This document shows positions 7,448-61,285 of a stretch of DNA of 64,000 nucleotides, piece after piece. This stretch comes from Flammeovirga pectinis (GTDB taxonomy: Bacteria; Bacteroidota; Bacteroidia; Cytophagales; Flammeovirgaceae). Both the position numbers and the translations under genes were made by a program. The stretch covers positions 935,501 through 999,500 of the forward strand of contig NZ_CP034563.1 of the NCBI RefSeq assembly GCF_003970675.1, read 5' to 3'. Position 1 is the first letter of the stretch; every line of letters begins with the position of its first letter. The notes beneath the pieces are model-generated. The model was not told the origin of the DNA and ran no database searches. It worked only from the letters and a program-made list of their open reading frames with translations.

Positions 7448-7669
7448 GTTCTCATTTTTTATAATTAAATGATGACCACAAATTAGTAACTGTACTACGT
7501 TTTTACTGTCTAATAATTATCTATTACAATTTTTTCTAGTTGTTTAGTTGGGTAATTTTGATGAAGTTTTAGTAATTTAATTTTTATAAATTGGTGTAAT
7601 TAGCAGTTATAACCGCTTAATTTATTTTTTTAATGAGAATATTGGAACAGAAATAGGAATTACTTTTTG

Positions 7670-10600
7670 ATGATTTTCAACTTTAGACAACACTCAATTC
7701 AACAACTATATCTACTAACTTACTTTTTACTATTAATGCTATGTGGAGTTTCCACAGTAAATGCTCAAAGGAGTGGTTTTGAAGTAGATATTTCTAAACA
7801 ATTAACAATAGAAAATGGACTATCTCATTTTGGGGTAACTTCTATTGCTCAAGATAATAATGGCTTATTATGGGTAGGTACTTTTAAAGGCTTAAATATT
7901 TATGATGGTTATGAATTTAAAACGTTTTATCACTCCACAGATTCCGGCTTAGTTAGTAATAGAATACACTCTTTGTATAAAGATGAAAATAATAATATTT
8001 TAATAGGAACTGAAAAAGGTGTTTCTGTTTACCTCTATCAAAAACAAGAATTTAGAACTTTATATACTAATAAAGGAACTATTGGAGAAGAGTTAGGACC
8101 ATACATTAATAAAATAATTGAAACTAAGAAATATATTATCTGCAATACACTTAAAAAAGGTGTTATTGTAATTGATAAAAATGGGTACTCTTTCAAGAAA
8201 ATAATTATTCCCAATTTTATAAATATAGGAAGTTTTAAATCTTTTAATATTGATAAAATTGATGACGATAACATTCTATTAGCAACCAATTCTGGGATAA
8301 TTATAGCTAACTTAAGTGCAGGAAAATGTAAAAGAATTTTAGAAGATAACTTTCCTTACTGTCTAGATATAGCCTTTGATGGAAATTCTACAATTTATGC
8401 CCTAAACTATAGGTTTTTAGGTATAATAAATATCAAAAATGGAAATTATACCATTAAAGCAAGAACTTTTGAAGGGGAAGATTATTCACAAATTCAACTT
8501 GGGAATGATGGAGAATTATGGTTAATGAAAAACAATAATGATTTAGCTGTAGTAGGAGATCCTACTTATATTAAAAACATTGATAAGCAGATTGTTAAGT
8601 TCTCTTTTACCTCTGATTTTACTCGTTTGAGTAGTATTTTATTAACAGATGAAGGAGGGTGGATTGGTACATTTAATCAAGGTCTTTTTAAGTTTAGAAG
8701 TGAAGAAAGACCGTTTAAATATTCGAACTTAAAAAATACAGATCAAGGAGAGAATAAGTCGAGTCAAGTAGTAAGTATGATCACCTTAGATCATGAAGAA
8801 ATATTAATTACATTGAATGCAAATAATGCAAAAGTTTTTAATATCAATAATAATACAATACAAGAGGTTAAGCAACCTGGTGTTTATAACCAAGTAATAA
8901 CAAGAGTTTTAAAAGATAACTATGGTACTATTTGGGGAGGTAGTTTAAGGGTTGGTGTTTTTCAGAAAAAGAATTTAGATGTTACTTGGAAACAATTAAT
9001 GAGTCCTGAATATCCTGTTTTAGATGGTGAATCTGTACGTGGTTTTACACAAGATAGATACAATGATATTTGGGTAGCAGGCTTAAGAAAGTTGTATCGT
9101 TATTCTATGAATTCAGATGGCTCTATCAAAAAAATAGAGGTAATAAATAATCTTGGTAGCGTACCATATAATTATAATTTAGCAACAAAAGTAATTTATG
9201 CAGATCCAATAAAAGATTGTATTTGGTTAGGTACCCAATCAGACGGTTTATTTAGAATAGATTATGTTAAAGATAAGCCTTTATCTGAAGTTACTTTTCA
9301 GCATTTTATTCCTATTAAAAATGATTCATCTTCTTTGCCTGTGTATGCCATTAATTGTATGCAACGTGTACTAAATGGAGACCTCTGGTTAGGTACTTTA
9401 GAGGGTGGGATTACAAAGGTGATTGAAGAAAATGATACTATAAAATTCAGAACATTTACAGAAAAAGAAGGGTTAGATGATAATGATGTAATGACGTTCC
9501 AATACGACAATAAAGGACGTTTATGGATTGCAACAAATCAAGGAATAAATCAGTTTGACCCCGTAACAGAAACCTTTAGAAATTATACTGCCGAAGATGG
9601 TTTAGTACCTGCTTCATTTGAAGTGAGCTCTACAAAATTATTAAATGGTATGATGGTTTTTGGGGGCAACAATGGGATATGTTATTTTAACCCAGATTTA
9701 GTACCCAATGAGAGTAATATCCCACCACTTTTATTTGGTGATTTGAAGGTGCATAATCAAATTGTAAAAGTAAAAAACAAGGGGGATAAAGCAGCTATTT
9801 TATTTAAACCTTTAAATGACTCTCATGAAATTACGTTGGAATACAATCAAAGAAGTATTGCCCTAGAGCTAATATCTTTACATTATTCCAATACTGAAGC
9901 CCATCATATTCGTTACAGGTTATTGCCAAAAGATACCTCATGGCTAGAAGCAACATCAAATAATAAAGTTGTAAACTTTAGCTTACTGCCTCCAGGCGAA
10001 TATATATTTGAGGCACAAGTATCGAATTCTAAGAATGAATGGTCTCCCACAAAAAGAATAAAAATTAATGTAAAATATGCTTGGTGGAATTCTAATGGAG
10101 CAAAAGGCTTGTATTTCTTGCTTATTTTCTTTGTGATTGCAATGGTAATGCTGACGTTATTACGAATGAAAACGCTTGAATATAATTTACAGATAGAGCA
10201 ATTTGACAAGAACCGTTTAGAAGAATTAGATGCTGCAAGATTAAAATTATTTATGAATATCTCGCATGAATTTAGAACACCTCTTACCTTAATTAGTGGT
10301 CCTATTTCTGTTCTTAAAGGGATGTTTGAAACTAATCAAGATGCCTTTCAGCATATAGATTTAATTCAAAGGCAATCAAAGAAAATGTTCCAGCTTGTAG
10401 AACAAGTACATGATGTTAGAAAGGCAGATGAAAATATTCTAAAATTGAAATATACCACTTTCGACTTTACAGATCTTGTTACAGATGTTAAGCAAGATTT
10501 TGATAAACTTGCTGAAGACTCTGGTAAAAAACTGATTTTAGAAGGAGATGCCAATCAATTATATGTACTTGCAGATGAGCATAAACTAGAAGTTGTTGTC

Positions 10601-11797
10601 AATAATTTACTAAATAATGCATTTAAATTTACAAGAGAAGGCGATCAGATTACAATTAATTATAAAGACAAAAATGGAGGATTATTTTTTAGTGTTTCAG
10701 ACACAGGAATAGGAATTCCAGAAGAAGATTTGGATCATCTATTTAAACGTTTTTATCAATCTAATAAAGGGGAGAAATACTCTGTAGGCACTGGTATTGG
10801 GTTGGAATTAACAAAAATGTTGGTAGAAATGCATCATGGTGAAATTACGGTGAGTAGTACCCTTGGAGAAGGAACAAAATTTGAGGTTTTTTTACCAATA
10901 GAAACACGTAAAGAAAATGTTTTAAGCGAGAAACGTATTGATGAAATTCATTCCTTAGAATCTCACGATGAAAGACAAAGGGTAGAAGATCAAGTAATTG
11001 ATTTATCAGAAATCATTAAAGAAAACGAACATAGTGATGTAACGATCTATTATGTTGAAGATAATACTGACCTTAGAAAATTTATATCTAAAATACTCAA
11101 TCAATATTTTGCTGTTGTAACATTTTCTAACGGTAAAGAATGTATTGATGCATTAGAAAATGAATGGCCAGATTTAATTTTGAGCGATATTATTATGCCC
11201 GAAATGAATGGAATTGAACTATGTAGATATATAAAAGGAGATGAAAAAACCAATCATATTCCGGTTGTTTTACTTACTTCTAGATCATCTACAGAAGAAA
11301 AAATTGAAGGTTTAGAGGTTGGGGCAGATATGTATATTACCAAACCGTTTGAGGTGAAACACCTTATTGCAAGTTTTAAAAATATTTTAAATAATAGGAA
11401 AACACTGCAAAATAAATTCCAAGCAGATGCTCCAATGCCATTAAAGAAAAAGCAAAAAACAGAAGAAGATAAAATTTTTGTAAATAAGTTTTACAAGCTC
11501 TTAGAAGAGAACCTTACAAATGAAAATATTGACTTAGAAGAGTTTGCTAAGGAACTATACCTGAGCAGAAGTCAGTTTTTTAGAAAAGTGAAAGCAATTT
11601 CAGATACAACACCTCAGGATTTAATTAGATCATATAAATTAAAAAAAGCTGCAGAATTGCTCTGCGAAGGAGAATACTCAGTTGCTGATGTAGTGGTTAT
11701 GGTTGGTTTTAAAAGTAGAACACACTTTAGTAAATCGTTTAAAGAAGTGTATGGAATTACTCCAAGTAAATATGCAATTGCAAAGAAAGAACAGTAG
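7670..11797 (+). CDS. Hybrid two-component system (HTCS) sensor/regulator of the PUL
   Basis: 1375 residues. In order: signal peptide (to about 34); periplasmic two-propeller sensor of Reg_prop repeats (for example GLLWVGTFKGLNIYDG, GRLWIATNQGINQFDP); Y_Y_Y Ig-like domain (about 700-800); one membrane helix (about 812-832); HisKA with H866 in NISHEFRTPL; HATPase_c with N and G boxes (LLNNAFKFT, SDTGIGIP); receiver with phospho-acceptor D1173 (LILSDIIMPEMNG); and a C-terminal AraC-type DNA-binding domain. This is the classic HTCS layout, which senses oligosaccharides in the periplasm and activates a PUL. A TTG three bases upstream is rejected in favour of ATG 7670. Likely regulator of the GH16/GH2/SusCD genes that follow. 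Confidence 0.95.
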   Translation: MIFNFRQHSIQQLYLLTYFLLLMLCGVSTVNAQRSGFEVDISKQLTIENGLSHFGVTSIAQDNNGLLWVGTFKGLNIYDGYEFKTFYHSTDSGLVSNRIHSLYKDENNNILIGTEKGVSVYLYQKQEFRTLYTNKGTIGEELGPYINKIIETKKYIICNTLKKGVIVIDKNGYSFKKIIIPNFINIGSFKSFNIDKIDDDNILLATNSGIIIANLSAGKCKRILEDNFPYCLDIAFDGNSTIYALNYRFLGIINIKNGNYTIKARTFEGEDYSQIQLGNDGELWLMKNNNDLAVVGDPTYIKNIDKQIVKFSFTSDFTRLSSILLTDEGGWIGTFNQGLFKFRSEERPFKYSNLKNTDQGENKSSQVVSMITLDHEEILITLNANNAKVFNINNNTIQEVKQPGVYNQVITRVLKDNYGTIWGGSLRVGVFQKKNLDVTWKQLMSPEYPVLDGESVRGFTQDRYNDIWVAGLRKLYRYSMNSDGSIKKIEVINNLGSVPYNYNLATKVIYADPIKDCIWLGTQSDGLFRIDYVKDKPLSEVTFQHFIPIKNDSSSLPVYAINCMQRVLNGDLWLGTLEGGITKVIEENDTIKFRTFTEKEGLDDNDVMTFQYDNKGRLWIATNQGINQFDPVTETFRNYTAEDGLVPASFEVSSTKLLNGMMVFGGNNGICYFNPDLVPNESNIPPLLFGDLKVHNQIVKVKNKGDKAAILFKPLNDSHEITLEYNQRSIALELISLHYSNTEAHHIRYRLLPKDTSWLEATSNNKVVNFSLLPPGEYIFEAQVSNSKNEWSPTKRIKINVKYAWWNSNGAKGLYFLLIFFVIAMVMLTLLRMKTLEYNLQIEQFDKNRLEELDAARLKLFMNISHEFRTPLTLISGPISVLKGMFETNQDAFQHIDLIQRQSKKMFQLVEQVHDVRKADENILKLKYTTFDFTDLVTDVKQDFDKLAEDSGKKLILEGDANQLYVLADEHKLEVVVNNLLNNAFKFTREGDQITINYKDKNGGLFFSVSDTGIGIPEEDLDHLFKRFYQSNKGEKYSVGTGIGLELTKMLVEMHHGEITVSSTLGEGTKFEVFLPIETRKENVLSEKRIDEIHSLESHDERQRVEDQVIDLSEIIKENEHSDVTIYYVEDNTDLRKFISKILNQYFAVVTFSNGKECIDALENEWPDLILSDIIMPEMNGIELCRYIKGDEKTNHIPVVLLTSRSSTEEKIEGLEVGADMYITKPFEVKHLIASFKNILNNRKTLQNKFQADAPMPLKKKQKTEEDKIFVNKFYKLLEENLTNENIDLEEFAKELYLSRSQFFRKVKAISDTTPQDLIRSYKLKKAAELLCEGEYSVADVVVMVGFKSRTHFSKSFKEVYGITPSKYAIAKKEQ

Positions 11798-45307: not shown

Positions 45308-45964
45308 ATGCAATCACGATTAATCCCTTCAGAAAAGTTAGAAGATTTGCTTCACTATTTTACTTCTTCACAAAAAAAGTATGATGAAGAAAAGCATACT
45401 GTACAAATCAATACCGAACAACTTAGCTTTACTTTAAGATTACCTTGGCAACTCGACATTAATTTATTGCCTAAGAATAAAACCTATATAATATGCTTAA
45501 TACAGACAGAAAGTGCTGTAGTAGGTTTAGTGAAAAATGGAGAGTTGACATTACATAAAACATTTTCTACGTATGCAGTTAGAAAAAAGCAAGGCAAATC
45601 TCAGATCAAATATTTAAAAACGAGAGGTAAATCTAAGGCTGGGTCACGTTTAAGATTAGCAAATACAATCAATTTCTTTGAGCATATAAACGAGCGTTTA
45701 ACAAGCTTCTTTAATACAGAAGAGGTGACGAATATTGTATTTAGTTGTTCAAAAATACTGATACCTTATTTATATACTTCTAAAGTCCCTTGTCCGTTCG
45801 AGAAGAAAGATAGCCGTTTATATAAGTTACCTAAATATGTGCCTAATGCTAATTTTGAAGATTTAAAAGACACTGTGAAATTTCTTAGCAGAGGCGAACT
45901 ATCTTTTGAAGATACCGATTTACCTGCAATGGAAAGCCTATTGAAAGACTTATTTAATAACTAA
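45308..45964 (+). CDS. Bacterial Vms1/ANKZF1-like (VLRF1) release-factor-fold protein
   Basis: 218 residues, no signal peptide, cytoplasmic. The segment YAVRKKQGKSQ (about 89-99), followed by TRGKSKAGSRLRLANTINFF, matches the core of the eukaryotic Vms1/ANKZF1 domain, where KQGGSQ carries the catalytic glutamine and the KSAGS(S/Q)LRR block follows. Q99 would be the equivalent glutamine; one glycine of the GGxQ-like loop is Lys. In eukaryotes the domain cleaves peptidyl-tRNA on stalled 60S subunits. Bacterial relatives have been reported by comparative genomics, as I recall, but their function is largely untested. It is 3 nt upstream of an esterase lipoprotein gene, probably a chance partner. 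Confidence 0.7.
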   Translation: MQSRLIPSEKLEDLLHYFTSSQKKYDEEKHTVQINTEQLSFTLRLPWQLDINLLPKNKTYIICLIQTESAVVGLVKNGELTLHKTFSTYAVRKKQGKSQIKYLKTRGKSKAGSRLRLANTINFFEHINERLTSFFNTEEVTNIVFSCSKILIPYLYTSKVPCPFEKKDSRLYKLPKYVPNANFEDLKDTVKFLSRGELSFEDTDLPAMESLLKDLFNN

Positions 45965-45967
45965 ATA

Positions 45968-47017
45968 ATGAGTAAACTATTAATAATTTTATTTACACTG
46001 ATAACAAGTTGTACACCAACTAAAAATACAAACAATTTGACGAAAGGGTATTGTGAAGGGAGGGTAATAACTACTTCTGAAGGAATTGAATTGATGTGGC
46101 CAGGAAGTGCTGTAACATTTAAAATAAAGGGTAAATATTTAGATGTCAACTTAATTGATGACAAAGGAGAAAATGACTATTCTATCATAATTGATGGAAA
46201 GGAAACAGGTTTTATTACTCCATCAAAAGAAGTAAAGACCTATAGATTATTAGAAACATCTACTTTAGCAGAACATACAATTACGTTACATAAAAGAACA
46301 GATTATTCTAGAGGTACAACTCTTTTATCTTCTGTAGAAACTGATGGTGAATTGCTACCCGTTCAACCAAAGAAAAAACATATAGAATTTTATGGTAACT
46401 CTATTACTGTTGGATATGCTAATATAGATACTACAGGAGAAGATAATTCTGAGTTTACCAATAATTACGTTGCCTTTTCTGCTTTAACGGCAAGACATTT
46501 TAATGCAGAACTAACTTGTATAGCAAAAAGTGGAATTGGTGTTATGGTGAGTTGGTTTGATTTGATTATGCCAGAATTATACGATAGGCATAACCCAAAT
46601 GATGCAAATAGTAAATGGGATTTTACACAAAAAACACCTGATGTTGTTGTTGTAAATCTTTGCCAGAATGATTATTGGATCTTAGGTATTCCTAATAACG
46701 AATTTTATATCAAGAAATTTGGCAGACAAGCACCAACTCCTGAATTTATTATCAACGCTTATCAAGAATTTATTGAGAATTTAAAAAGTAAATACCCATC
46801 AACTCCAATAGTGTGTGTATTAGGAGTAATGAATATTGTTGATGAAGGGTCTCCTTGGCCTAGCTATATTACAAAAGCAGTCGAGAATATTGGAGATGAT
46901 ACAATCCATACTTTAATATTGCCCTATTTAGCAGATAGTGCTCATCCTAATGTAAAAGAACATAAAAAAATGTCTGAATTATTGATTTCATTCTTAGAAG
47001 ATAAGGAGTTACTGTAG
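45968..47017 (+). CDS. SGNH-family esterase lipoprotein, CE2-like
   Basis: 349 residues with lipobox cysteine 15 (LITSC). The N-terminal half (to about 130) is a jelly roll (VTFKIKGKYLDVNL), the rest an SGNH hydrolase: Ser145 in FYGNSITVGY (block I), NLCQNDYW (block III) and D323-x-x-H326 (DSAHPNVKEH, block V). This two-domain layout is that of CE2 acetyl esterases, which remove acetyl groups from polysaccharides. It should act in the periplasm or at the surface. No carbohydrate genes adjoin it, so the substrate is open. Confidence 0.8.
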   Translation: MSKLLIILFTLITSCTPTKNTNNLTKGYCEGRVITTSEGIELMWPGSAVTFKIKGKYLDVNLIDDKGENDYSIIIDGKETGFITPSKEVKTYRLLETSTLAEHTITLHKRTDYSRGTTLLSSVETDGELLPVQPKKKHIEFYGNSITVGYANIDTTGEDNSEFTNNYVAFSALTARHFNAELTCIAKSGIGVMVSWFDLIMPELYDRHNPNDANSKWDFTQKTPDVVVVNLCQNDYWILGIPNNEFYIKKFGRQAPTPEFIINAYQEFIENLKSKYPSTPIVCVLGVMNIVDEGSPWPSYITKAVENIGDDTIHTLILPYLADSAHPNVKEHKKMSELLISFLEDKELL

Positions 47018-47151: not shown

Positions 47152-47694
47152 ATGTACGGTATTGTAAATAAAGCCATTGAAGGATTAGTAACTGAAAATT
47201 TTGGTGCTGAAAATTGGAGGAAAATTAGAGAGAAAAGTGGTGTTGAAATTGAAGTGTTTTCAGGTAATGAACTCTACGATGATAAAATTACTTTCGATTT
47301 AGCTATTGCAGCAGCCGATGTTTTAGAATTACCATTAGAAGATGTTTTAATTGCCTTTGGAAAATATTGGGTTTTAACAACAGCCAAAAAACATTACGGT
47401 TCTTTAATGGATACTGGTGGGAATACACTAAGAGAATTTTTTGTGAATCTACCCAACTTTCATAGTAGAGTAATGCTTTTGTATCCAAATATTCAACCTC
47501 CAGAATTTGATGTAGAAGAGGTCGGAGAAAAGGAATTAAAATTAAAATATTTTTCTAAACGTGAAGGACTAACGTTTTTTGTTCATGGTCTAATTTTAGG
47601 ACTTGGAGAGGCTTTTGATATGGTTGTAGAAACTGAATTGATCCAAGGTAGAAAAGATGGATTAAAATATGATGAGTTCTTAGTTAAATGGTAA
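47152..47694 (+). CDS. H-NOX heme nitric-oxide-binding sensor
   Basis: 180 residues, the standard size of a stand-alone H-NOX protein, cytoplasmic. It begins MYGIVNKAIEGLV, has the proximal heme ligand at H104 (NLPNFHSRVMLLYPNIQPPEF region) and the propionate-binding YxSxR motif at Y133-S135-R137 (KYFSKR). The PNIQPPEF segment resembles the soluble guanylate cyclase type more than some proteobacterial forms. It should bind heme and sense NO, then change the activity of its partner kinase. The partner is encoded 4 nt downstream. Confidence 0.9.
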   Translation: MYGIVNKAIEGLVTENFGAENWRKIREKSGVEIEVFSGNELYDDKITFDLAIAAADVLELPLEDVLIAFGKYWVLTTAKKHYGSLMDTGGNTLREFFVNLPNFHSRVMLLYPNIQPPEFDVEEVGEKELKLKYFSKREGLTFFVHGLILGLGEAFDMVVETELIQGRKDGLKYDEFLVKW

Positions 47695-47698
47695 AAAT

Positions 47699-50600
47699 AT
47701 GTACGCAGAGATAGGAAATACGAAATTAGACTTCAATCTATTATCACCTTTTTATTTTATTGTAGATAAAAATTTAACTATAATTTCTAATGGTAAAAGC
47801 TTTGAGAAATTATTTCCTGATAGTTGTTTCAATAAACTAGAGAATTACTTAAAACTAGCTAGACCTTGGAGTATTGATTTTACATATGATGATATTAAAA
47901 ATCAACTTAAAAAGGTATTTGTATTTCAAAATTCTGAACGAGATTTGGTTTTAAGAGGGCAGGTGGTTTTATTGGAAGAAGACGAACTTATCCTATTTTT
48001 AGGCTCACCTTGGATGAAAACTACAGATGAGCTTATAAAACATAAATTATCGCTAACAGATTTTGCACTTAATGATCCGACTCCAGATGCCGTTCAATTA
48101 CTAAAAATGAACGAAATCAATATGATGGAGCTTCGTGAGATGACGGATCGTTTGGAGCAACAAAAACATGATATTGAGCAAAAAGAAATGCTCTACAGAG
48201 GTTTGGTAGAAAATGCCTCTGAAATGATTTACCAAGCTGATGTAGATGGTAAACTTCTTTATGTTAATCCTGCAACATTAACCATAACTGGCTACTCATC
48301 AGAAGAAATTATTTCAAAAGAATTCTTCGATTTAATAACTCTTGATATGCGAGAGGAAGTTACATTAAAGTTTGAAGAACAAAAGAAGAACGGTACGCAT
48401 AAAGAAACGTATGAGTACAGTATAAATAATAAGGAAGGGGCTGAAGTTTGGATTTATCAAACACTAATTAGCATCACTAATAAACAGAATGTAATTATTG
48501 GTTATAGCTCTGTTGGGGTAGATATATCTCTTAGAAAAGAAATGGAGCAGACGCTAGAAACTGCCCGTCAGAAAGCACTTGAATCTGCAAGAATCAAAGA
48601 GCGTTTTATTGCCAATACGAGTCATGAATTAAGAACGCCAATGAACGCAATTATTGGTTTATCTAATTTATTAACCAAGACACCATTATTACCAAAGCAA
48701 TCAGAATTTATAAATGCCATTAAAACATCATCAGAAAACCTTTTAGTAGTAATTAATGATGTTTTAGATATGTCTAAAATTGAGTCAGAAAAGTTAGAAA
48801 TTGAGTTTATAGAATTCAATTTAAAAGATAAGATTGCTCAGTTTATGACTGCCTTAGAAATTAAGGCAAGCGAGAAGAATATTTTATTACTGCACGAATG
48901 GAAACCTGAAGTTCACGAATATATTTTGGGTGATCCCTATAGGCTTAATCAGGTACTTACAAATTTAGTGAGTAATGCTATTAAGTTTACTACAGATGGA
49001 GAAGTGAAGTTAACAGTGGAGTTAGATAGAATTGATGAAGAAAATAATGTGCAGTACCTCAACATTAAAGTAAAAGATACTGGAGAAGGTATATCAGAAG
49101 AAAAACATAAAAGTATTTTTGAAGGATTTTCGCAAGCTGACGCATCAATTACAAGAAAGTTTGGAGGCACTGGGCTAGGTTTAACAATTAGTAAAAGCCT
49201 TGTGGAATTAATGGGCGGTGTAATTACATTAGAAAGCGAAGTAGGCAAAGGTTCTACTTTTAGCGTTTTGATTCCATTTAAAAAATGTGAGGATATTGAT
49301 ATTGTAAAAGAGCCATTACGCTTAGATGAAGATATAGATTGGAGTGAGTATAAGGTCTTATTAGTAGAAGATAATCAGTTCAACCAGTTGTTAGCAGAAA
49401 ATATTTTGGGGCAATGGAAAGTTGATGTCGAAATTGCGGATAATGGTAAAATAGCTATTGAAAAAATTCAAAAATCTAATTTTGATGTTATCCTAATGGA
49501 TATTCAAATGCCAGAGATGGATGGAATTGAAGCTACTCAATATATTAGGGGGAAGTTGCAGATAGCAACGCCAATTATTGCTTTAACGGCAAATGCCATG
49601 AAGGATGATTTGGACTACTACGAATCTATTGGAATGGATGCGTGTATTACTAAACCTTTTAAGCAAGATGACTTACAAGATGTACTTTACAGACTTTTCT
49701 CTAAAGAAGAAATTGTTATTGAGCATGAAGTGAAGACAACTTCTTGGCATGGGAAAAAGATATTATTAGTTGAAGACAATGAATACAACCAACTTTTAGT
49801 TGTAAATATTCTAAGAGACTGGGGACTTGAAGTAGACACGGCTAATAATGGGTACGATGGTCTAGAAAAATTGAACGAAGAAGAATATGATATGATCTTG
49901 ATGGATATACTAATGCCCAAAATGGGTGGAGTAGAAGCCACAAGGTTAATTAGGAATACACTCAAAAGAGACACTCCAATTGTTGCTTTTTCTGCACACT
50001 TGACATCTAAACTAGAAAAAGAATTTTTGGAAGTAGGGATGAACGGTTGTATTCCAAAACCGTTTAAAGTTGGTCAGTTAAAAAAGACAATAAATGATGT
50101 CTTTAATTTTAACAACAAAAAGACCCGTAAAAAAGAACTGCATAGACCTTCTGAAGGATGGAAAGGAAAGAAAATTTTAGTAGTAGAAGACAACCCGTTT
50201 AACCAGTTACTTGTAGTAAATATATTAGAAGGCTGGGATATGGAAATTGAAACTGCTGAAAATGGAGAAGACGCCATAAATAAAATCAAAGAAAATAACT
50301 TCGATCTTATTCTAATGGATATTCAGATGCCAATAATGGATGGTGTAGAAGCAACTAAGTTTATTAGAGAAGATTTAAATAATGATATTCCAATTATTGC
50401 TTTAACAGCAAATACATCTAAAGAAGAAAAAGAGTTGTACGAAGTGGTAGGTATGAATGCTATTGTCTCTAAACCCTTTGATTTAGAGGTGTTTGAGGAG
50501 ACAATAAAAGAGTTTTTATCTACAACAACAGATAACGATTCTATTATTGAAGAGAAGAAAGATATAAACGGAATATCTGTACTTATTGTAGAAGATAATC

Positions 50601-50926
50601 CATTTAATATATTATTACTTAGAGGTATTTTAGACCAGTGGGATATTAGTATCGATGAAGCAGAAAATGGTAAGATTGCTGTAGAGCTAGTAAAAGAAAA
50701 TAAATATGATTTGATATTTATGGATATTCAGATGCCAGTGATGGATGGAGTTCAAGCTACCAAAATAATGAGAGAAGAACTTCAGTTGAAAACACCAATA
50801 ATAGCAATTACTGCAAATACAGAAGACGAACTTGTAAACCAATACTTTGCTGTAGGAATGAATGCTTGTATTCCAAAACCATATGGACAAGAAGAATTGC
50901 AACAATCAATAATGAAACTTTTATAA
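47699..50926 (+). CDS. H-NOX-associated hybrid histidine kinase with four receiver domains
   Basis: 1075 residues, no membrane helix. In order: an HNOBA domain (about 1-130; SPFYFIVDKNLTII, VLRGQVVLLEEDELILFLGSPW), a coiled coil (to about 160), PAS (about 165-285), HisKA with H309 (NTSHELRTPMNAI), HATPase_c (NLVSNAIKFT, GGTGLGLTISK), then four receivers. Their phospho-acceptors are D601, D736, D874 and D1009, each in a (M/F)MD(I)xMPxM(D/G)G context, and each has a downstream Lys-Pro. HNOBA proteins are the established partners of H-NOX. No HPt or output domain is present, so the phosphate must pass to an unseen partner. Four receivers in tandem is unusual. Confidence 0.9.
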   Translation: MYAEIGNTKLDFNLLSPFYFIVDKNLTIISNGKSFEKLFPDSCFNKLENYLKLARPWSIDFTYDDIKNQLKKVFVFQNSERDLVLRGQVVLLEEDELILFLGSPWMKTTDELIKHKLSLTDFALNDPTPDAVQLLKMNEINMMELREMTDRLEQQKHDIEQKEMLYRGLVENASEMIYQADVDGKLLYVNPATLTITGYSSEEIISKEFFDLITLDMREEVTLKFEEQKKNGTHKETYEYSINNKEGAEVWIYQTLISITNKQNVIIGYSSVGVDISLRKEMEQTLETARQKALESARIKERFIANTSHELRTPMNAIIGLSNLLTKTPLLPKQSEFINAIKTSSENLLVVINDVLDMSKIESEKLEIEFIEFNLKDKIAQFMTALEIKASEKNILLLHEWKPEVHEYILGDPYRLNQVLTNLVSNAIKFTTDGEVKLTVELDRIDEENNVQYLNIKVKDTGEGISEEKHKSIFEGFSQADASITRKFGGTGLGLTISKSLVELMGGVITLESEVGKGSTFSVLIPFKKCEDIDIVKEPLRLDEDIDWSEYKVLLVEDNQFNQLLAENILGQWKVDVEIADNGKIAIEKIQKSNFDVILMDIQMPEMDGIEATQYIRGKLQIATPIIALTANAMKDDLDYYESIGMDACITKPFKQDDLQDVLYRLFSKEEIVIEHEVKTTSWHGKKILLVEDNEYNQLLVVNILRDWGLEVDTANNGYDGLEKLNEEEYDMILMDILMPKMGGVEATRLIRNTLKRDTPIVAFSAHLTSKLEKEFLEVGMNGCIPKPFKVGQLKKTINDVFNFNNKKTRKKELHRPSEGWKGKKILVVEDNPFNQLLVVNILEGWDMEIETAENGEDAINKIKENNFDLILMDIQMPIMDGVEATKFIREDLNNDIPIIALTANTSKEEKELYEVVGMNAIVSKPFDLEVFEETIKEFLSTTTDNDSIIEEKKDINGISVLIVEDNPFNILLLRGILDQWDISIDEAENGKIAVELVKENKYDLIFMDIQMPVMDGVQATKIMREELQLKTPIIAITANTEDELVNQYFAVGMNACIPKPYGQEELQQSIMKLL

Positions 50927-53923: not shown

Positions 53924-55015
53924 ATGAATAGAACTTATATTGATTACATAATTTACGACTTAATGAGACTTTCAAATTTTATCATACTATCTATCTTTTT
54001 TATTTCTTGCGCTACAAAAGACAAGGTAGAGAAAGAGAACAAAGACCAATTAGTAAAAATTATTCAAGTAGATGTTGGGAATTCTAACGACATAAAAATT
54101 GTAACGGGAGTAACATCACCTAATAAAGAAGTTAACATGTCTTTTAGGGTAAGTGGACCTTTAGTCAATTTTGATTTAGAAGAGGGACAAAAGGTAGTGA
54201 AAGGACAGTTTCTAGGAGCAATAGATGCTAGAGATTTTAAGTTGTCGCTAAAAAAAGCAGAAGCAAATTTTAGATTAGCAAAAACTGAAAACGAAAGAGC
54301 AATTAGGTTGCATAAAAGCAATAATGTCTCTTTACAAGTACTTGATAAAGCAAAGTTGACATTTGAAGAAGCACAAACCAATTTAATTTCATCAAGAAAT
54401 GCTTTAAGTGATACAAAACTATATGCTCCATTTACGGGGTACATAAAATCTGTACATACAGAGAAAGGGGAACATGTAAATGCAACACAAAAAATAATTG
54501 TATTGCAAGATTTTTCTAAGGTGAAAGTAAAGTGTAATGTACCAGAAGCAGTTGTATTAAACGCTAAAAATATTGAGAGAATTCACGTAGTTTTTGACTC
54601 TAAACCATCACAAAGGTTTTCTGCAGAAGTTTTAGAAATACTACACGATACTGAAGGTATAAATTATGCATACCCAATGATCTTGGCATTAAATCAGAAT
54701 AACGAGGACATAATTGCAGGAATGACTGCAGAAATTTATCTAACACTATCTACAACAAAATCTACTACTAGTTTACTACCTACTAACGCAGTGATGGGTA
54801 AACCAAACGGAGATAGCTTCGTTTGGGGAATCCGTCCAGAAACGCAAACATTAAAGAAAGTACCTGTAAGTATTAAAGGATTAAAAAATGATGACAAATT
54901 TATTGTTGAAATAATGGACAAGATAGAATGGGTAGTTGCTACAGGTGGTACTTATTTAGTGGAGGGCCAGAAAGTACGTGTGAAATTAGATAATACCATT
55001 GTTTCTTTAAACTAA
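53924..55015 (+). CDS. RND efflux periplasmic adaptor
   Basis: 363 residues from 53924, where AGGAG lies three bases before the ATG; a second ATG at 53963 gives a neater lipoprotein signal with lipobox cysteine 16 (FFISC), and could be the true start. The membrane-fusion-protein fold is seen: lipoyl halves (VSGPLVNFDLEEGQKVVKGQFLG and LYAPFTGYIKSVHTEKGEHV), an alpha-hairpin between them (about 110-160), then beta-barrel and proximal domains. It joins the RND pump to TolC. The next gene starts 6 nt after its stop. Confidence 0.9.
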   Translation: MNRTYIDYIIYDLMRLSNFIILSIFFISCATKDKVEKENKDQLVKIIQVDVGNSNDIKIVTGVTSPNKEVNMSFRVSGPLVNFDLEEGQKVVKGQFLGAIDARDFKLSLKKAEANFRLAKTENERAIRLHKSNNVSLQVLDKAKLTFEEAQTNLISSRNALSDTKLYAPFTGYIKSVHTEKGEHVNATQKIIVLQDFSKVKVKCNVPEAVVLNAKNIERIHVVFDSKPSQRFSAEVLEILHDTEGINYAYPMILALNQNNEDIIAGMTAEIYLTLSTTKSTTSLLPTNAVMGKPNGDSFVWGIRPETQTLKKVPVSIKGLKNDDKFIVEIMDKIEWVVATGGTYLVEGQKVRVKLDNTIVSLN

Positions 55016-55021
55016 TACCAA

Positions 55022-58000
55022 ATGAACTTAACGAAATTTACTATTGATAATAAACCGTTTAGTTGGTTTATACTGCTATTAATAATTCTTGGAGGTGTAA
55101 TTGCCTATAACAAAATTGGTAAGCTAGAAGATGCTCCTTTTACAATTAAACAAGCAGTTGTACTTACTTCATATCCTGGAGCTTCTGCAAAAGAAGTGGA
55201 ACAACAAATAACAGATAAGTTAGAAGAAGCTATACAATCCATGGATGGTTTAGATTATTTAGATTCTGATAGCAGACCTGGTGTATCTCGTATTCTTGTA
55301 GTTCTTAAAAAAACAATAGCTGCTGATGATATTCAGCAGATGTGGGATTTACTTAGACGTAAGGTAGGTGATGCACAATCTTCTTTACCTGCAAATGCAA
55401 ATCCTTCTATTGTTAACGATGATTTTGCTGATGTTTTAGGTCTTTTTTATGGAATTTATGGTGAAGGATACAGTTATAGAGAGCTGAATGATTATGCTGA
55501 TGATATTAAAAAGGATTTATTAAAAGTTGATAATGTAGCAAAGGTCTCTTTATTTGGTAAGGCACAAGAAAGTATAGATATCAAATTATCGTATACAGCC
55601 ATGAATCAGTTAGGGGTTTCATTGGAGGATATAATGATAACTTTAAATCAGCAAAACAGTTTAGTAAATGCAGGTTTTATCAATACTAATAAGCAAAGAA
55701 TTAGAGTTAAAGTAGGTGGCGATTTTGCAGATGTTAAAGAGCTAAATAGCTTTTTGGTAAATACTAAAAATGGGCAACAGGTTAAACTTAGTGAAATTGC
55801 ATCAATTGAAGAAGGGTATGTAACACCATACACAACCAAAATGAAAATTGAAGGGCAATCTGCTGTTGGGATTGCCATTTCTGCATCTGCTGGGGCAAAT
55901 GTTGTAGAAGTTTCTGAAGGTATAAGAAATAAGTTATCGCAAATAAAAACGGATTTACCTGCAGGGCTTCATATTCAAAATATCTACGATCAAGGAAAAG
56001 AGTCGCAAGAAGCGAACAATGGTTTTATTTTTAATTTAGTGGCTTCTGTTGTAACAGTAGTCGTTATCTTATTATTTTTCATTGGTTTAAAGAACGGAAT
56101 ATTAGTAGGCTCTGGATTGGTATTTTCAATATTAGCCACAATAATTGTAATGTGGAGTTTTGGTATCAATATGGAACGTGTATCATTGGCAGCACTTATT
56201 ATTGCAATGGGTATGCTAGTAGATAATTCTATTGTAGTTGTGGAATCTATTTTAATGAAAATGAAGCAAGGCGTTCCTAAACAACAAGCTATTATGGAAG
56301 CAGCTAAGGCGTCTTCATGGCCATTGTTAGGTGCTACAATTATTGCAATTCTTACCTTTTTACCGATCAGAATATCACCTGATGCTACAGGAGAATACTT
56401 ATCTTCATTATTTTCTGTTTTAGCGATTTCGTTGTCATTAAGTTGGGTATTTGCCTTAACACAATCTGCTTTAGTATGTGATGTTTTCTTAAAAGATGAA
56501 CCAAAAAACGAAAAGTCATCAGACCTATACCAAGGGAAATTATATGATAAGTTTAGAAGTTTATTAGGACTAAGTATTCGTTATAAATATATATCACTGG
56601 GTATTTTCTTGACAATATTTTCAGTATCACTTTTCACCGCAAAATACATGTCTGTTGTATTTATGCCTGAACTAGAAAAAAATCTATTTAAGATAAATGC
56701 TTTCGCTCCGGAGGGTACAAGAATTGATTACACAGAAGAGGCAGCAGATGAAATATACAATTGGCTTAAAAATCAAAAAGAAGTAAAAGAAGTTACGGTA
56801 ACTATAGGCATGACGCCACCACGTTACTTTTTAGCATCCTCTTCATATGGACCTCAATCAAATGTTATGCATTTCATTATTAAATGTGATGATTTTGATA
56901 ATGTAGAAAAGGTCTTTAATCGATTAGAAGAACAGAAAAGAGATTTATTTCCTGAGTTATTTGTTCGCCCTGAATTGTACTCTGTAATGTCACCTTTAGA
57001 TGGAAAAGTAGAAGTACGTTTTATGGGTAATGATATTCTAGTTTTAGATTCCTTAAATCATGTAGCAATGGATATCATGAGGGCAACTCCTAAAGCAAGA
57101 CATGTACATAGTAGTTGGTTCAATATGTCGCCTATTTGGAATGCAGAATACTCTTCTAATAAAGTAGCAAGGGCTGGCGTAACTAGAGTCGATATTGCCA
57201 ATTCATTTAAAATTATAAATGAGGGCTTAGTTGTAGGTATATATAGAGAGGAAAATGAGTTAATGCCGATAATGCTAAAAACCGATGAAGGAAGTACGGC
57301 AGATATCACTAAAGTTGAAAATATGTCGGTACTCTCTAAAAGTAAAACTGTACCGTTACCACAATTAGTAAATGATTTATCTGTTGATTATGAATATCAA
57401 TTAATACAAACATACAACCGACATAGAGCTATTTCTGCACTTTGTGATCCAGTAAAAGGAGTAACAACGGGAGAGTTACAAAAAGAAATTGTAAGTAAAA
57501 TAGAAGCAATGGAACTTCCAGAAGGGTATACAATGATGTGGGATGCTGAAAAGAAAAATCAGAAGGAAGCAGTTGATGCAATTGTAACTTTCTTTCCTCT
57601 TGCTTTTCTATTGATTATAGCCATTCTAATTGCTCTTTTTGGTAACTACAAGCAACCGTTAATTGTAATGGTTTTACTACCATTCTCACTTATAGGTGTT
57701 GTATTTGGTTTAGTAGGTTTAGGCAGGGCATTTGATTTCATGTCGTTTATTGGTTGGATAGGTTTATTAGGCATGGTTATAAAAAATGTAATTGTTCTTT
57801 TAGACGAAGTAAACATTCAAAGACAAGAGGGATTATCTCATTACACAGCAATTATAGCAGCAACGGTATCTAGAACACGACCTGTACTTATGGCGGCAAT
57901 CACTACCATGTTTGGCATGATTCCACTTATACCAGATAGCGTTTTTGGAGCAATGGCTGTAACCATAATCTTTGGCTTAGGCTTCGCTACATTCCTCACA

Positions 58001-58054
58001 TTATTAGCAGTGCCAGTCTTCTATGCACTTTTCTACAATATTAAAACCAAATAA
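55022..58054 (+). CDS. RND efflux pump, inner-membrane permease
   Basis: 1010 residues, standard for AcrB/MexB-like HAE-type RND permeases, twelve helices and two large periplasmic loops. Helix 4 carries IIAMGMLVDNSIVVVESI with the first of the two proton-relay aspartates kept and the second as Asn; helix 10-12 has the usual FMSFIGWIGLLGMVIKN. The N-terminus (GVIAYNKIGKLEDAPFTIKQAVVLTSYPGASAKEVEQQITD) is typical. It expels drugs, detergents or similar compounds with proton exchange. Second gene of an operon with adaptor and TolC. Confidence 0.95.
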   Translation: MNLTKFTIDNKPFSWFILLLIILGGVIAYNKIGKLEDAPFTIKQAVVLTSYPGASAKEVEQQITDKLEEAIQSMDGLDYLDSDSRPGVSRILVVLKKTIAADDIQQMWDLLRRKVGDAQSSLPANANPSIVNDDFADVLGLFYGIYGEGYSYRELNDYADDIKKDLLKVDNVAKVSLFGKAQESIDIKLSYTAMNQLGVSLEDIMITLNQQNSLVNAGFINTNKQRIRVKVGGDFADVKELNSFLVNTKNGQQVKLSEIASIEEGYVTPYTTKMKIEGQSAVGIAISASAGANVVEVSEGIRNKLSQIKTDLPAGLHIQNIYDQGKESQEANNGFIFNLVASVVTVVVILLFFIGLKNGILVGSGLVFSILATIIVMWSFGINMERVSLAALIIAMGMLVDNSIVVVESILMKMKQGVPKQQAIMEAAKASSWPLLGATIIAILTFLPIRISPDATGEYLSSLFSVLAISLSLSWVFALTQSALVCDVFLKDEPKNEKSSDLYQGKLYDKFRSLLGLSIRYKYISLGIFLTIFSVSLFTAKYMSVVFMPELEKNLFKINAFAPEGTRIDYTEEAADEIYNWLKNQKEVKEVTVTIGMTPPRYFLASSSYGPQSNVMHFIIKCDDFDNVEKVFNRLEEQKRDLFPELFVRPELYSVMSPLDGKVEVRFMGNDILVLDSLNHVAMDIMRATPKARHVHSSWFNMSPIWNAEYSSNKVARAGVTRVDIANSFKIINEGLVVGIYREENELMPIMLKTDEGSTADITKVENMSVLSKSKTVPLPQLVNDLSVDYEYQLIQTYNRHRAISALCDPVKGVTTGELQKEIVSKIEAMELPEGYTMMWDAEKKNQKEAVDAIVTFFPLAFLLIIAILIALFGNYKQPLIVMVLLPFSLIGVVFGLVGLGRAFDFMSFIGWIGLLGMVIKNVIVLLDEVNIQRQEGLSHYTAIIAATVSRTRPVLMAAITTMFGMIPLIPDSVFGAMAVTIIFGLGFATFLTLLAVPVFYALFYNIKTK

Positions 58055-58059
58055 TAGTC

Positions 58060-59373
58060 ATGACGTTATTCAAACAGATAATGAGTGCCATAGTATTGGT
58101 ATTTCTTTTAGGAGATGTTTACGCACAAGCCAACGATCCCTATTTAGGCGAGTATAGAAAAGATGCTTTAGCACACGAACAATATGTGAAGATTGCAGAA
58201 AATAGGGTAGAAATTAGACATAAAAATTACAAAGCAGCAGCAGCAGACCTTCTTCCAAAAATTTCTGCATCAGCAGATTATTGGTATGTGCAAAACCCTC
58301 TATTAATGGCTTTTCCAGAAGACAATAGGTTAGGAGAATTATCGGGAATGTCTTTAGGAGAAGGTGCAAATAACCAATATGGTGTTTATACCACATTAAC
58401 TCAGCCTATTTATAGAGGTGGAATGTTAAAGGAGAAGCAAAAAAGAGCACAAGTAAGAGAACAAATGTCTTACGATGAATTACAAATTACTAAACAGGAT
58501 ATTGTAATGGCTACAGATTTACAATATTGGCAATCTGTTGCACAGAAAGAATTAGTGTATGCTATGCATAACTACAGAGATGATTTAACTAGAATTTCTA
58601 ATTTAGTAGCACATAAAGTAGAAGTTGGAACAGTAAACAAAAGTGATCATTTAATGACGGAAGTACGTGTAAACCGTGCAAAGTTAGCTGTTATACAAGC
58701 AGAAAATGATTTAAAAGTTTACAGTATGTCTCTAAACAGACTTCTAGGTAGAGGTTTTGAAGATACTTTGCCTTTAAGTGATTCAATTGTTTTAGAAGCT
58801 TTTTTCTTACCGACAATAGATCAGAAAGTACGCCCTGAATACACATTAGCAGAGCACAAAGTAAAAAGTAGTGTGCATGAACTAAATATGGTAAAAAGTA
58901 CTTACAAGATGCAACTAAGTGGTATCGCTACTGGTTCTTATTCATCTCCTGGTTATGATTTTAACCCAGGAGCATTACCAAATATTCAATTAGGAATGAT
59001 GCTTAGTATTCCAATTTATCAAGGACGCAAGAAACATCAAGTAGTAGGTGCACAACAAATTAGACTGCAGAATAGAGAATTAGAATTAGAACGTACACAA
59101 GAGATTTTAAACTTAGAAGTTGCGCAGAAAAAAGTTGCATGGCAAAATAGTATTAAAGAAACAGACCTTGCCAAAACATCAGTAGATAAAGCGAAAGAAA
59201 ATGCGTTGGCTATGGAAGAACGCTTTGAGGAAGGAATGATTGATATTTTAGAAGTGATCGACTCGCAACTTTATTTAGAACAGGCAGTAATAGAATTTAT
59301 TCAAAGTAAATTAAAAGCACAGGTCCAATGGACACATTATTTACGTGCTATAGGACATCTAACAATTAACTAG
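58060..59373 (+). CDS. TolC-family outer-membrane efflux protein
   Basis: 437 residues with a signal peptide (ends about GDVYAQ) and two homologous OEP halves made of long helices and barrel strands (AENRVEIRHKNYKAAAADLLPKISAS; GVYTTLTQPIYRG; MMLSIPIYQGRKKHQ). It forms the exit duct of the RND system encoded upstream; its start is 5 nt after the pump stop. A clear terminator follows. Confidence 0.95.
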   Translation: MTLFKQIMSAIVLVFLLGDVYAQANDPYLGEYRKDALAHEQYVKIAENRVEIRHKNYKAAAADLLPKISASADYWYVQNPLLMAFPEDNRLGELSGMSLGEGANNQYGVYTTLTQPIYRGGMLKEKQKRAQVREQMSYDELQITKQDIVMATDLQYWQSVAQKELVYAMHNYRDDLTRISNLVAHKVEVGTVNKSDHLMTEVRVNRAKLAVIQAENDLKVYSMSLNRLLGRGFEDTLPLSDSIVLEAFFLPTIDQKVRPEYTLAEHKVKSSVHELNMVKSTYKMQLSGIATGSYSSPGYDFNPGALPNIQLGMMLSIPIYQGRKKHQVVGAQQIRLQNRELELERTQEILNLEVAQKKVAWQNSIKETDLAKTSVDKAKENALAMEERFEEGMIDILEVIDSQLYLEQAVIEFIQSKLKAQVQWTHYLRAIGHLTIN

Positions 59374-59477: not shown

Positions 59478-60518
59478 ATGATTCTTCTAGAAAGGAATTA
59501 CAAATGGCTACAACCGGTATTAAGTATATCGATTTCATTACTATTATTAGTATTTACATACTGGTCAATTAATATCAATTTTGATATGACCCAGATGTTC
59601 TCCTATATGAGCACCTATTTGTATTTACTATGGTTTAATGGCTTTGTGTTTTTAAGTACAAAGTTTACACAGTTTTTTGATAAATACTTACCTTTTGAAA
59701 AACATTCAAGTTTGCGTTTAACGGTAGAATTGGTCTCTCTGTTTTTAATGGCCTTTATCTTCTTTTATATTGTAATGGTAATTCTTAATATATATGGTGC
59801 AATAGATGAGCCTCACGTGCTGAATAAAAACAATACAATAATTGGTATCTTCCATAGCTTAGTTTTATTGCTCTACAGTTCGCTTACAATTACGGATGAT
59901 TTTTTAAGGAAATGGAGGACAGATTCTTTAAAAATTGAAGCTTTAAAACAAGATAAACTAAGGGCGGAGAATAGAGCTTTACAAGCCCAACTCAACCCTC
60001 ATTTTTTATTCAATAGCTTAAATGTCATTATTTCAGAAATTGATCATGATCCTAAATTAGCAAAGCAATTTGCACTCGATTTGTCTCATACCTATAGATA
60101 TGTGCTACAAAGTAAAGATGTAGAATCAGTTACTTTCGAGACAGAATGGGAAGCCATGCAAGCTTATATACATTTGCATCAAGTTCGGTTAGGGGAAGGT
60201 TTAAAGGTTATAATAACGATAGATTCCGCTTCAAATCAAAAAAAAATACCACCATTAAGTATTCAGCTTTTATTAGAAAATTGCTTTAAGCACAATCAAG
60301 CAACATTAAGAAAACCGTTATCCATCACAATATTTTCGGATGGTAACCATTTCACTATTGAAAATAATAAACAGCCAAAAAATAATTCAGCAGATACATA
60401 CAACATAGGGATTCAGTATTTAAAAGAGAGCTTTAAGCAATTAGATACATACGCTTCTATTCTTGTAGAAGAAGATGATTCGACTTTTAAAATCACTATA
60501 CCATTAATAGAAGCATAA
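59478..60518 (+). CDS. LytS-like sensor histidine kinase
   Basis: 346 residues: four predicted membrane helices (to about 140), then a coiled linker (KIEALKQDKLRAENRALQAQ) and the His_kinase domain with H175 in LNPHFLFNSLNVI, then an HATPase-like tail (IQLLLENCFKHN). This is the LytS/YehU class, which pairs with LytTR regulators. The regulator gene starts 5 nt after its stop. Being next to an RND operon, it may control that operon or membrane stress in general. Confidence 0.9.
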   Translation: MILLERNYKWLQPVLSISISLLLLVFTYWSININFDMTQMFSYMSTYLYLLWFNGFVFLSTKFTQFFDKYLPFEKHSSLRLTVELVSLFLMAFIFFYIVMVILNIYGAIDEPHVLNKNNTIIGIFHSLVLLLYSSLTITDDFLRKWRTDSLKIEALKQDKLRAENRALQAQLNPHFLFNSLNVIISEIDHDPKLAKQFALDLSHTYRYVLQSKDVESVTFETEWEAMQAYIHLHQVRLGEGLKVIITIDSASNQKKIPPLSIQLLLENCFKHNQATLRKPLSITIFSDGNHFTIENNKQPKNNSADTYNIGIQYLKESFKQLDTYASILVEEDDSTFKITIPLIEA

Positions 60519-60523
60519 CAACC

Positions 60524-61285
60524 ATGAAAGTTCTTATAATTGAAGATGAAATTCCGGCTCAACGCTATCTTAAAAATATCATTAAAGAAATAAAACCGAA
60601 ATGGGAATTTCTTTTCCCTTTGCAATCTGTTGAAGAAGGAATAGAATTCTTTACGGAAGAGGAAGTAATGCCCGATCTGATTTTTATGGATATTCAGCTT
60701 ACCGATGGAATTAGTTTTGAAATTCTAGAGCAAGTGAATGTCAAAATACCAATCATCTTTGTTACAGCATATGATGAGTACGCATTAAGAGCTTTCCAAG
60801 TAAATAGTATAGATTATCTTCTAAAGCCTACTTTTGTAGACGCTGTTAAGGTTGCAATTGAAAGGTTTGAAGAGCAACTAAATTTACCACTAAAAGCAGA
60901 AGTGATTGAAGAGGTTTTAAGAACAGTGAAAACTTCTGATAAAGCATATAGAAAACGACTGTGGGCCATAAAACCTAATAGTTTAGATGTTGTTATTGTA
61001 GATGATATTGCGTGTTTCTATTCAGAAAATAAACAGACGCATTTATTATCCTTACAAAACGATAAAGCTAAAGTAGATATTACAATGGATAAATTGGAAG
61101 ATGAACTCTCACCAGAAAGGTTCTTTAGAATTAACCGTCAGTACATAATTAATATTAATGCCGTGCAAGGCATAGAACCTTATTATAATAGTAAATGGGT
61201 GCTCCGTTTAAAAATTGATCCATCTATAGAAATCGTTATTCCGAAAGATAAAGTAACAAAGTTTAAAAATTGGGTAGTGGATTGA
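60524..61285 (+). CDS. LytTR-family response regulator
   Basis: 253 residues: receiver (to about 120) with phospho-acceptor D56 (LIFMDIQLTDG) and conserved Lys-Pro later (DYLLKPTF), and a C-terminal LytTR DNA-binding domain (about 145-250: YFSENKQTHLLSLQND, ERFFRINRQYIININAVQGI). It is the partner of the LytS-like kinase, co-transcribed. Such pairs control membrane, biofilm or efflux genes; the target here is not shown. Confidence 0.95.
   Translation: MKVLIIEDEIPAQRYLKNIIKEIKPKWEFLFPLQSVEEGIEFFTEEEVMPDLIFMDIQLTDGISFEILEQVNVKIPIIFVTAYDEYALRAFQVNSIDYLLKPTFVDAVKVAIERFEEQLNLPLKAEVIEEVLRTVKTSDKAYRKRLWAIKPNSLDVVIVDDIACFYSENKQTHLLSLQNDKAKVDITMDKLEDELSPERFFRINRQYIININAVQGIEPYYNSKWVLRLKIDPSIEIVIPKDKVTKFKNWVVD

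Follow-up and report, generated by a model that had tools for sequence, protein, structure and literature searches.

The window analyzed here, i.e., a stretch of 64,000 nucleotides (nt) of DNA from the marine bacterium Flammeovirga pectinis (contig NZ_CP034563.1, positions 935,501 to 999,500 of the forward strand), carries a gene for an H-NOX protein directly followed by a gene for a hybrid histidine kinase with an HNOBA domain and four receiver domains, R1 to R4 (Table 1). A gap of 4 nt (AAAT) separates the H-NOX gene from the kinase ATG at 47699. A first-pass annotation of this DNA, made from the letters alone, had described the two genes in this arrangement, and both the Pfam matches and the coordinates agree with it. 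One H-NOX and one HNOBA open reading frame (ORF) were found in this genome (6.68 Mb, three contigs).

The H-NOX protein matched the Pfam HNOB profile at 151.6 bits, compared with a cut-off of 25.5, over positions 1-162 of 163, and could be aligned over its full length with the Nostoc H-NOX protein Alr2278. The motif YxSxR reads YFSKR (residues 133-137), and His104, Tyr133, Ser135 and Arg137 were invariant in 19/19 aligned H-NOX sequences. We take these four residues, His104 being the proximal one, to have a role in heme binding. Trp73 is also intact. At the sole distal-pocket position that was looked at, Phe143 aligned with Met144 of Alr2278; this is the position that we take to hold the distal Tyr of O2-binding members. 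Judged at this one position, Phe143 suggests a nitric oxide (NO)-selective member of the family with a non-polar distal pocket.

The kinase matched Pfam HNOBA at 74.4 bits (cut-off, 23.4). Its core is complete, comprising HisKA and HATPase_c domains, and contains strings that we presume to be the N-, G1- and G2-boxes. The Response_reg profile of Pfam matched the protein in four stretches, and the Asp and Lys residues of each receiver were located, in keeping with the four complete receivers that had been annotated. The protein ends two residues past the end of the R4 profile match. Genome-wide, 71 receiver matches were obtained; four of these lie in this kinase ORF, the next richest ORF has two, and the other listed frames have one each.

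In an AlphaFold model of the receiver array, built with six sequences, the secondary structure corresponded to four (beta-alpha)5 units. The mean predicted local distance difference test score (pLDDT) was 78.8 and the predicted template modeling score (pTM) 0.49, so that the relative placement of the domains is not readable from the model. The linker between R1 and R2 was ordered (pLDDT ~73-89), and those between R2 and R3 and between R3 and R4 were of low confidence, partly below 50. A promoter scan was uninformative, with 22 promoter-like sites as compared with 20.9 in shuffled sequences; a terminator scan gave no terminator-like site, and a search of Rfam gave no match at the gathering threshold.

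Table 1. Positions of the H-NOX gene, the kinase gene and the kinase domains in the window (residue numbers are those of the kinase; aa, amino acids)
Feature	Position	Strand	Basis
H-NOX sensor gene, 180 aa	47152-47694	+	Pfam HNOB; alignment to Nostoc Alr2278; 19-sequence alignment
Four-receiver HNOBA hybrid histidine kinase, 1075 aa	47699-50926	+	Pfam; layout in 9/9 genus genomes searched
HNOBA domain, residues 1-165	47699-48193	+	Pfam HNOBA, two stretches; alignment
PAS domain, residues ~166-280	48194-48538	+	Pfam PAS, 54.1 bits
HisKA, residues 300-364, phospho-acceptor His309 (HELRT)	48596-48790	+	Pfam, sequence
HATPase_c, residues 411-528	48929-49282	+	Pfam, sequence
Receiver R1, residues 553-665, Asp601, Lys652	49355-49693	+	Own receiver profile, trees
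Receiver R2, residues 688-800, Asp736, Lys787, Ser replacing Thr	49760-50098	+	Own receiver profile
Receiver R3, residues 826-938, Asp874, Lys925	50174-50512	+	Own receiver profile
Receiver R4, residues 961-1073, Asp1009, Lys1060	50579-50917	+	Own receiver profile

Distribution of the four-receiver layout

In all nine Flammeovirga genomes searched, an H-NOX gene was directly followed by a gene for a four-receiver kinase of 1071-1077 aa, and no receiver had been lost in any of the nine. Because the pair and the layout recur throughout the genus genomes searched, the four-receiver layout is genuine and not due to chance, and the pairing of H-NOX with an HNOBA kinase is likewise supported. All eight other Flammeovirga loci also have the two genes that precede the pair, whereas the genes that follow it vary. 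In the window, these upstream genes (45308-47017) encode a bVLRF1-type Bacteroidetes release factor and a CE2-type esterase, with homologues in the same order at 8/8 of the other loci.

The number of receivers per HNOBA ORF was determined with a profile built from the loci themselves. The survey consisted of the best 80 of 310 relatives together with further search hits; most came from Bacteroidota, with few from Verrucomicrobiota, Acidobacteriota and others, and none from Pseudomonadota was noticed among the record titles. Most hits that matched only the last ~40-55 positions of the profile were left out, and three hits of this kind (L091-L093), which gave no match to our own HNOBA profile, were not counted. 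From 130 unique HNOBA ORFs (i.e., not letter-identical), the 12 that touched the end of a fetched stretch were dropped. Amongst the remaining 118, no receiver was found in 48 (a class that includes frame-broken fragments), one receiver in 60, two in a single ORF and four in nine. All nine four-receiver ORFs are those of Flammeovirga, and the lone two-receiver ORF is from Terrimonas (L103).

In a 2010 census of 43,426 two-component proteins, those with one transmitter carried one receiver in 3919 cases, two in 588, three in 88 and four in just 4, and one more protein has two transmitters and six receivers (PMC3018481). The rarity that had been proposed for the layout is thus borne out by the survey and the census alike. 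A literature search for hybrid kinases with this number of receivers matched no publication; a wider search for four receivers matched a text on a ratio of domains, and none was matched by Flammeovirga together with H-NOX. In the titles and abstract openings of the HNOBA and H-NOX literature searched, a body of text with subscription journals mostly outside it, a four-receiver hybrid histidine kinase with HNOBA was likewise undescribed. Within this survey and this literature, the layout is therefore not a common and described one.

Other arrangements were also seen amongst the surveyed loci. In six from Bacteroidota (L077, L079, L081, L082, L085 and L088), a stand-alone receiver (137-156 aa) is encoded immediately before H-NOX, and by our own profile the HNOBA kinase lacks one, so that the receiver is in trans rather than fused. 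One genome (G394) has two H-NOX operons ~57 kb apart (L082 and L083) with equal match scores (unaligned), and one of the kinase ORFs is only 214 aa long. Two further loci, L105 and L198, each have two H-NOX matches and a single HNOBA kinase ORF.

Maintenance and origin of the receivers

All 36 receivers of the genus retain the acidic pair, the Asp, the Thr or Ser, and the Lys-Pro. Between the window and its nearest relative, the ratio of nonsynonymous to synonymous substitution rates (dN/dS) was 0.018, 0.033, 0.036 and 0.068 for R1 to R4, respectively, and in another pair it was 0.010-0.035; in the other three of five pairs, at least some of the receivers had saturated dS values, and the usable dS values, mostly 0.5-1.3, were high. 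These comparisons suggest purifying selection on the receivers. It is likely that all four can be phosphorylated. Mean identity within the genus was highest for R1 (78%) and amounted to 72, 74 and 76% for the others, and identity between the four receivers averaged 44-54%. Each also has invariant features of its own, such as the stretch KPFKVGQLKK around the conserved Lys of R2, the stretch LVVNILEGW in R3, and alignment column 13, taken to lie within helix 1, which is A, V, V and L in R1 to R4 and invariant for each receiver. Four maintained, specialized domains would fit these data better than decay. Decay of the extra receivers was rejected in view of the catalytic residues kept in 36/36 and of the low dN/dS where this was measurable.

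The same figures, together with the absence of receiver losses in the nine genomes, argue against a role of the extra receivers in docking or dimer control without phosphotransfer, as well as against a near-neutral expansion. Such a role would have a precedent in RodK, which needs all three of its receivers for fruiting and passes phosphate to one, according to excerpts from PMC3868531; for the Flammeovirga kinase we consider it quite improbable. A different proposal is that a single receiver provides the output, with phosphate being drained or stored by the remaining three, which would set how strong an NO signal must be and how long the response lasts. The same excerpts describe phosphate sinks formed by tethered receivers in CheA3 and in H. 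pylori CheAY2 (PMC3868531). The catalytic residues kept in all four receivers are consistent with this proposal, and a flexible array would accord with the linkers in the model, of which R1-R2 is predicted to be ordered and R2-R3 and R3-R4 are of low confidence. Invariant surfaces specific to one receiver, however, are present in each of the four and would not be needed in a pure sink, and we regard this account as rather unlikely. Sink or branching roles, as raised in the first-pass annotation, are plausible.

The relationships of the receivers were examined in a tree of 112 receivers, after removal of three duplicates belonging to the window's genome, and in a set of 94, from which the 17 receivers of this genome that were most distant and the first receiver of L103, a long branch, were also left out. 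In the larger tree, R1, R2, R3 and R4 each formed a clade of their own across the nine species. R1 grouped with the single receivers of four short HNOBA kinases from the same taxonomic order (support 98/89), R2 to R4 grouped together (84/84), and all forty rows, i.e., R1 to R4 and the four single receivers, were separated from the rest (99/91). The corresponding values in the 94-row tree were 97/88, 89/88 and 96/91. The four short relatives end 5-15 aa past their receiver, so that the four-receiver kinase has the appearance of a short one with three receivers added. Given that R1 groups with the receivers of the short kinases and that R2 to R4 stand beside them, the extra receivers were most likely derived from this kinase lineage's own receiver, which points to the local duplication considered in the first-pass annotation.

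Two results weigh against this history. The single clade of R2 to R4 is only moderately supported in either tree, and a clade of R1 to R4 that excludes the single-receiver kinases was not rejected (p-AU 0.133, 94-row set). The copying may have taken place in the lineage of Flammeovirga itself or, if other lineages lost the copies, at an earlier time. Recruitment from other kinases is less likely, in that 0/24 sampled other receivers of the genome fell inside the clade of R1 to R4 and the single receivers (67 lie outside this ORF, of which 43 were unsampled). Recent gene conversion or an assembly repeat was rejected on the basis of the separate clades across nine genomes and the mean identity between receivers. 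Since each receiver forms its own clade across species, the copies are not being homogenized.

Candidate outputs and the proposed signaling route

Tails of receiver-bearing HNOBA kinases were analyzed amongst 114 unique ORFs, with 19 later-added stretches excluded. Of the 51 such kinases other than those of Flammeovirga, 37 have a tail of at least 100 aa, and 35 of these 37 tails match Pfam Hpt (35/51 overall). By Pfam and by tail analysis, no HPt is fused to the Flammeovirga kinase. Because it lacks the C-terminal HPt of these 35/51 relatives, its output would be expected in trans, via a free HPt.

Six HPt matches were obtained in the genome, five of them above the cut-off. Two are in large hybrids, three are free proteins, and one is in a 601-aa frame that is presumably CheA. 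None of the six falls in the window, as had been stated, and the search for HPts elsewhere in the genome thus yielded three free ones, one being below the Pfam cut-off. These are located at C1:387 kb (113 aa), C1:1577 kb and C1:4651 kb (122 aa). The first two directly follow sigma-54 activator genes, and the gene after the third is presumably queG, judged by its sequence. The activator at C1:387 kb has a clear receiver, and that at C1:1577 kb gave no receiver match with Pfam. In L053 (4995-6687), a weak HPt (22.8 bits, compared with a cut-off of 24.6) comes after a sigma-54 activator whose N-terminal region lacks a Pfam receiver match, possibly representing a worn receiver with a retained HPt. 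The 113-aa and 122-aa HPts were each present in 9/9 genus genomes, and the former adjoins a sigma-54 regulator in all nine. With a profile made from the HPts of HNOBA kinase tails, the two sigma-54-linked HPts scored 83-84 bits, the third free HPt 29 bits and the two HPt-bearing hybrids 21-25 bits.

Several observations speak against an assignment of the sigma-54-linked HPts to this kinase. HPts in other proteins of the Xanthocytophaga genus score up to 111 bits with the HNOBA-tail profile, and this control, as it involves non-HNOBA proteins, weakens HPt subtype as proof of partnership. The pair of HPt and sigma-54 gene also occurs in a genome of the same family (G010) without any HNOBA match. 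Furthermore, no HPt lies near the operon, and the favored HPt at C1:1577 kb is below the Pfam cut-off, at 22.8 vs. 24.6 bits. In light of the subtype control and the pair in the HNOBA-free genome, the sigma-54-linked HPts are first candidates only, and output through them is doubtful, albeit conceivable.

The HPts also bear on the idea of a one-to-many NO hub, in which the docking faces of the tandem-copied receivers would have specialized, each addressing a different HPt or regulator branch. The divergence of the receivers from one another, as compared with their 72-78% identity across the genus and their own invariant patches, would be expected of such a hub, and so would three free HPts, two of which were the subject of a genus-wide search and occur in 9/9 genomes. 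However, three free HPts face four receivers, none of them is linked to the operon, and the third is of a different subtype by sequence. RodK, moreover, transfers to one of its three receivers (excerpts from PMC3868531). We therefore deem such a hub unlikely; several HPt outputs for the kinase are possible. If the idea were true, a single heme-NO signal would reach separate HPt/regulator branches, such that several pathways would be controlled.

Beyond the anatomy of the genes, the route that we infer and favor begins with a single ancestral receiver, from which four would have arisen by multiplication in place, ahead of the divergence of the known Flammeovirga species. NO would bind the heme of H-NOX, H-NOX would dock on the HNOBA domain, and the NO-bound form would alter, most likely lower, the phosphorylation of His309; that NO gates the kinase in some way is very likely. 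R1, as the ancestral partner of the kinase core, would be the first phosphate acceptor, which we consider probable. R2 to R4 would be working acceptors with interfaces of their own, able to hold, drain or pass phosphate within the tethered array. Output would proceed in trans via a free HPt, most likely one of the two beside the sigma-54 activator genes. Taken as a whole, this chain, from an NO-responsive kinase with a receiver multiplied in place, through R1, to an HPt output, is put forward tentatively, with a probability somewhat short of even.

No output gene is found beside the operon, and to this extent the annotation of the window as lacking one is correct. It does not hold for the window at large, in which there are two regulators, one of the hybrid one-protein kind (7667-11797) and one of the LytTR kind that adjoins a kinase (59478-61285). 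The former combines Reg_prop, Y_Y_Y, HisKA and HATPase domains, one receiver and an AraC-type helix-turn-helix, and the window also has genes for beta-galactosidase and GH16, similarly to polysaccharide-use loci. The latter belongs to a separate two-component pair, in which a His_kinase-type sensor kinase adjoins the LytTR response regulator. This pair is preceded by genes of the resistance-nodulation-division efflux type (53924-59373), one being an outer membrane efflux protein by Pfam and the other two having been assigned by eye. Near the left edge of the window (678-2360) lies a gene for a predicted AAA-ATPase with a PD-(D/E)XK nuclease domain (PF09820/PF08011).

Comparison with known systems

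Four-receiver hybrid kinases are very rare in the one census available (PMC3018481). In the present case, a likely one-receiver ancestor, a four-receiver derivative, the sensor partner and a probable input can all be identified, and the receivers can be removed singly. For these reasons, the need for more than one receiver is directly testable within one genus.

The HqsK/HahK-type kinases of Vibrio and their relatives, which we take to carry one receiver, resemble the Flammeovirga kinase in that a hybrid kinase works with H-NOX. According to excerpts from PMC6769237, HqsK is a cytosolic kinase that uses the HPt LuxU for signaling and whose activity is inhibited when H-NOX has bound NO. The Flammeovirga kinase differs from HqsK in its four receivers and in having candidate HPts only.

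Several tethered receivers are also found on hybrid kinases of other kinds. RodK of Myxococcus xanthus has three rather than four; fruiting requires all of them, and phosphate is transferred to the third (PMC3868531, excerpts). With at least three tethered receivers, the Flammeovirga kinase is a multi-receiver kinase in the manner of RodK. We know of no link of RodK to H-NOX or HNOBA. MA4377 of Methanosarcina acetivorans likewise has more than one C-terminal receiver, and phosphotransfer to both of its fused receivers takes place in vitro (PMC11784639, excerpts). It differs in having two fused receivers plus a separate one and a membrane CHASE4 sensor.

The HNOBA kinases themselves offer further comparisons. 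The HNOBA-kinase-receiver-HPt proteins, mostly from Bacteroidota, share the HNOBA domain, the kinase core and a receiver with the Flammeovirga kinase, usually with H-NOX adjoining, but have one receiver and, in 35/37 long tails, a C-terminal HPt. The Terrimonas kinase L103 has two receivers and an HPt; in the tree, the first of these receivers is separated from the Flammeovirga copies by a long branch. The four short kinases (L047 and L048 of the Xanthocytophaga genus, L192 and L207; 667-678 aa) have an identical domain order up to R1 and an adjoining H-NOX, with ~46% identity to the Flammeovirga kinase for L047 and L048, but carry a single receiver and no R2 to R4. Taken together, the four-receiver kinase of Flammeovirga is a conserved, rare and genus-wide variant of the known H-NOX/HNOBA hybrid kinases.

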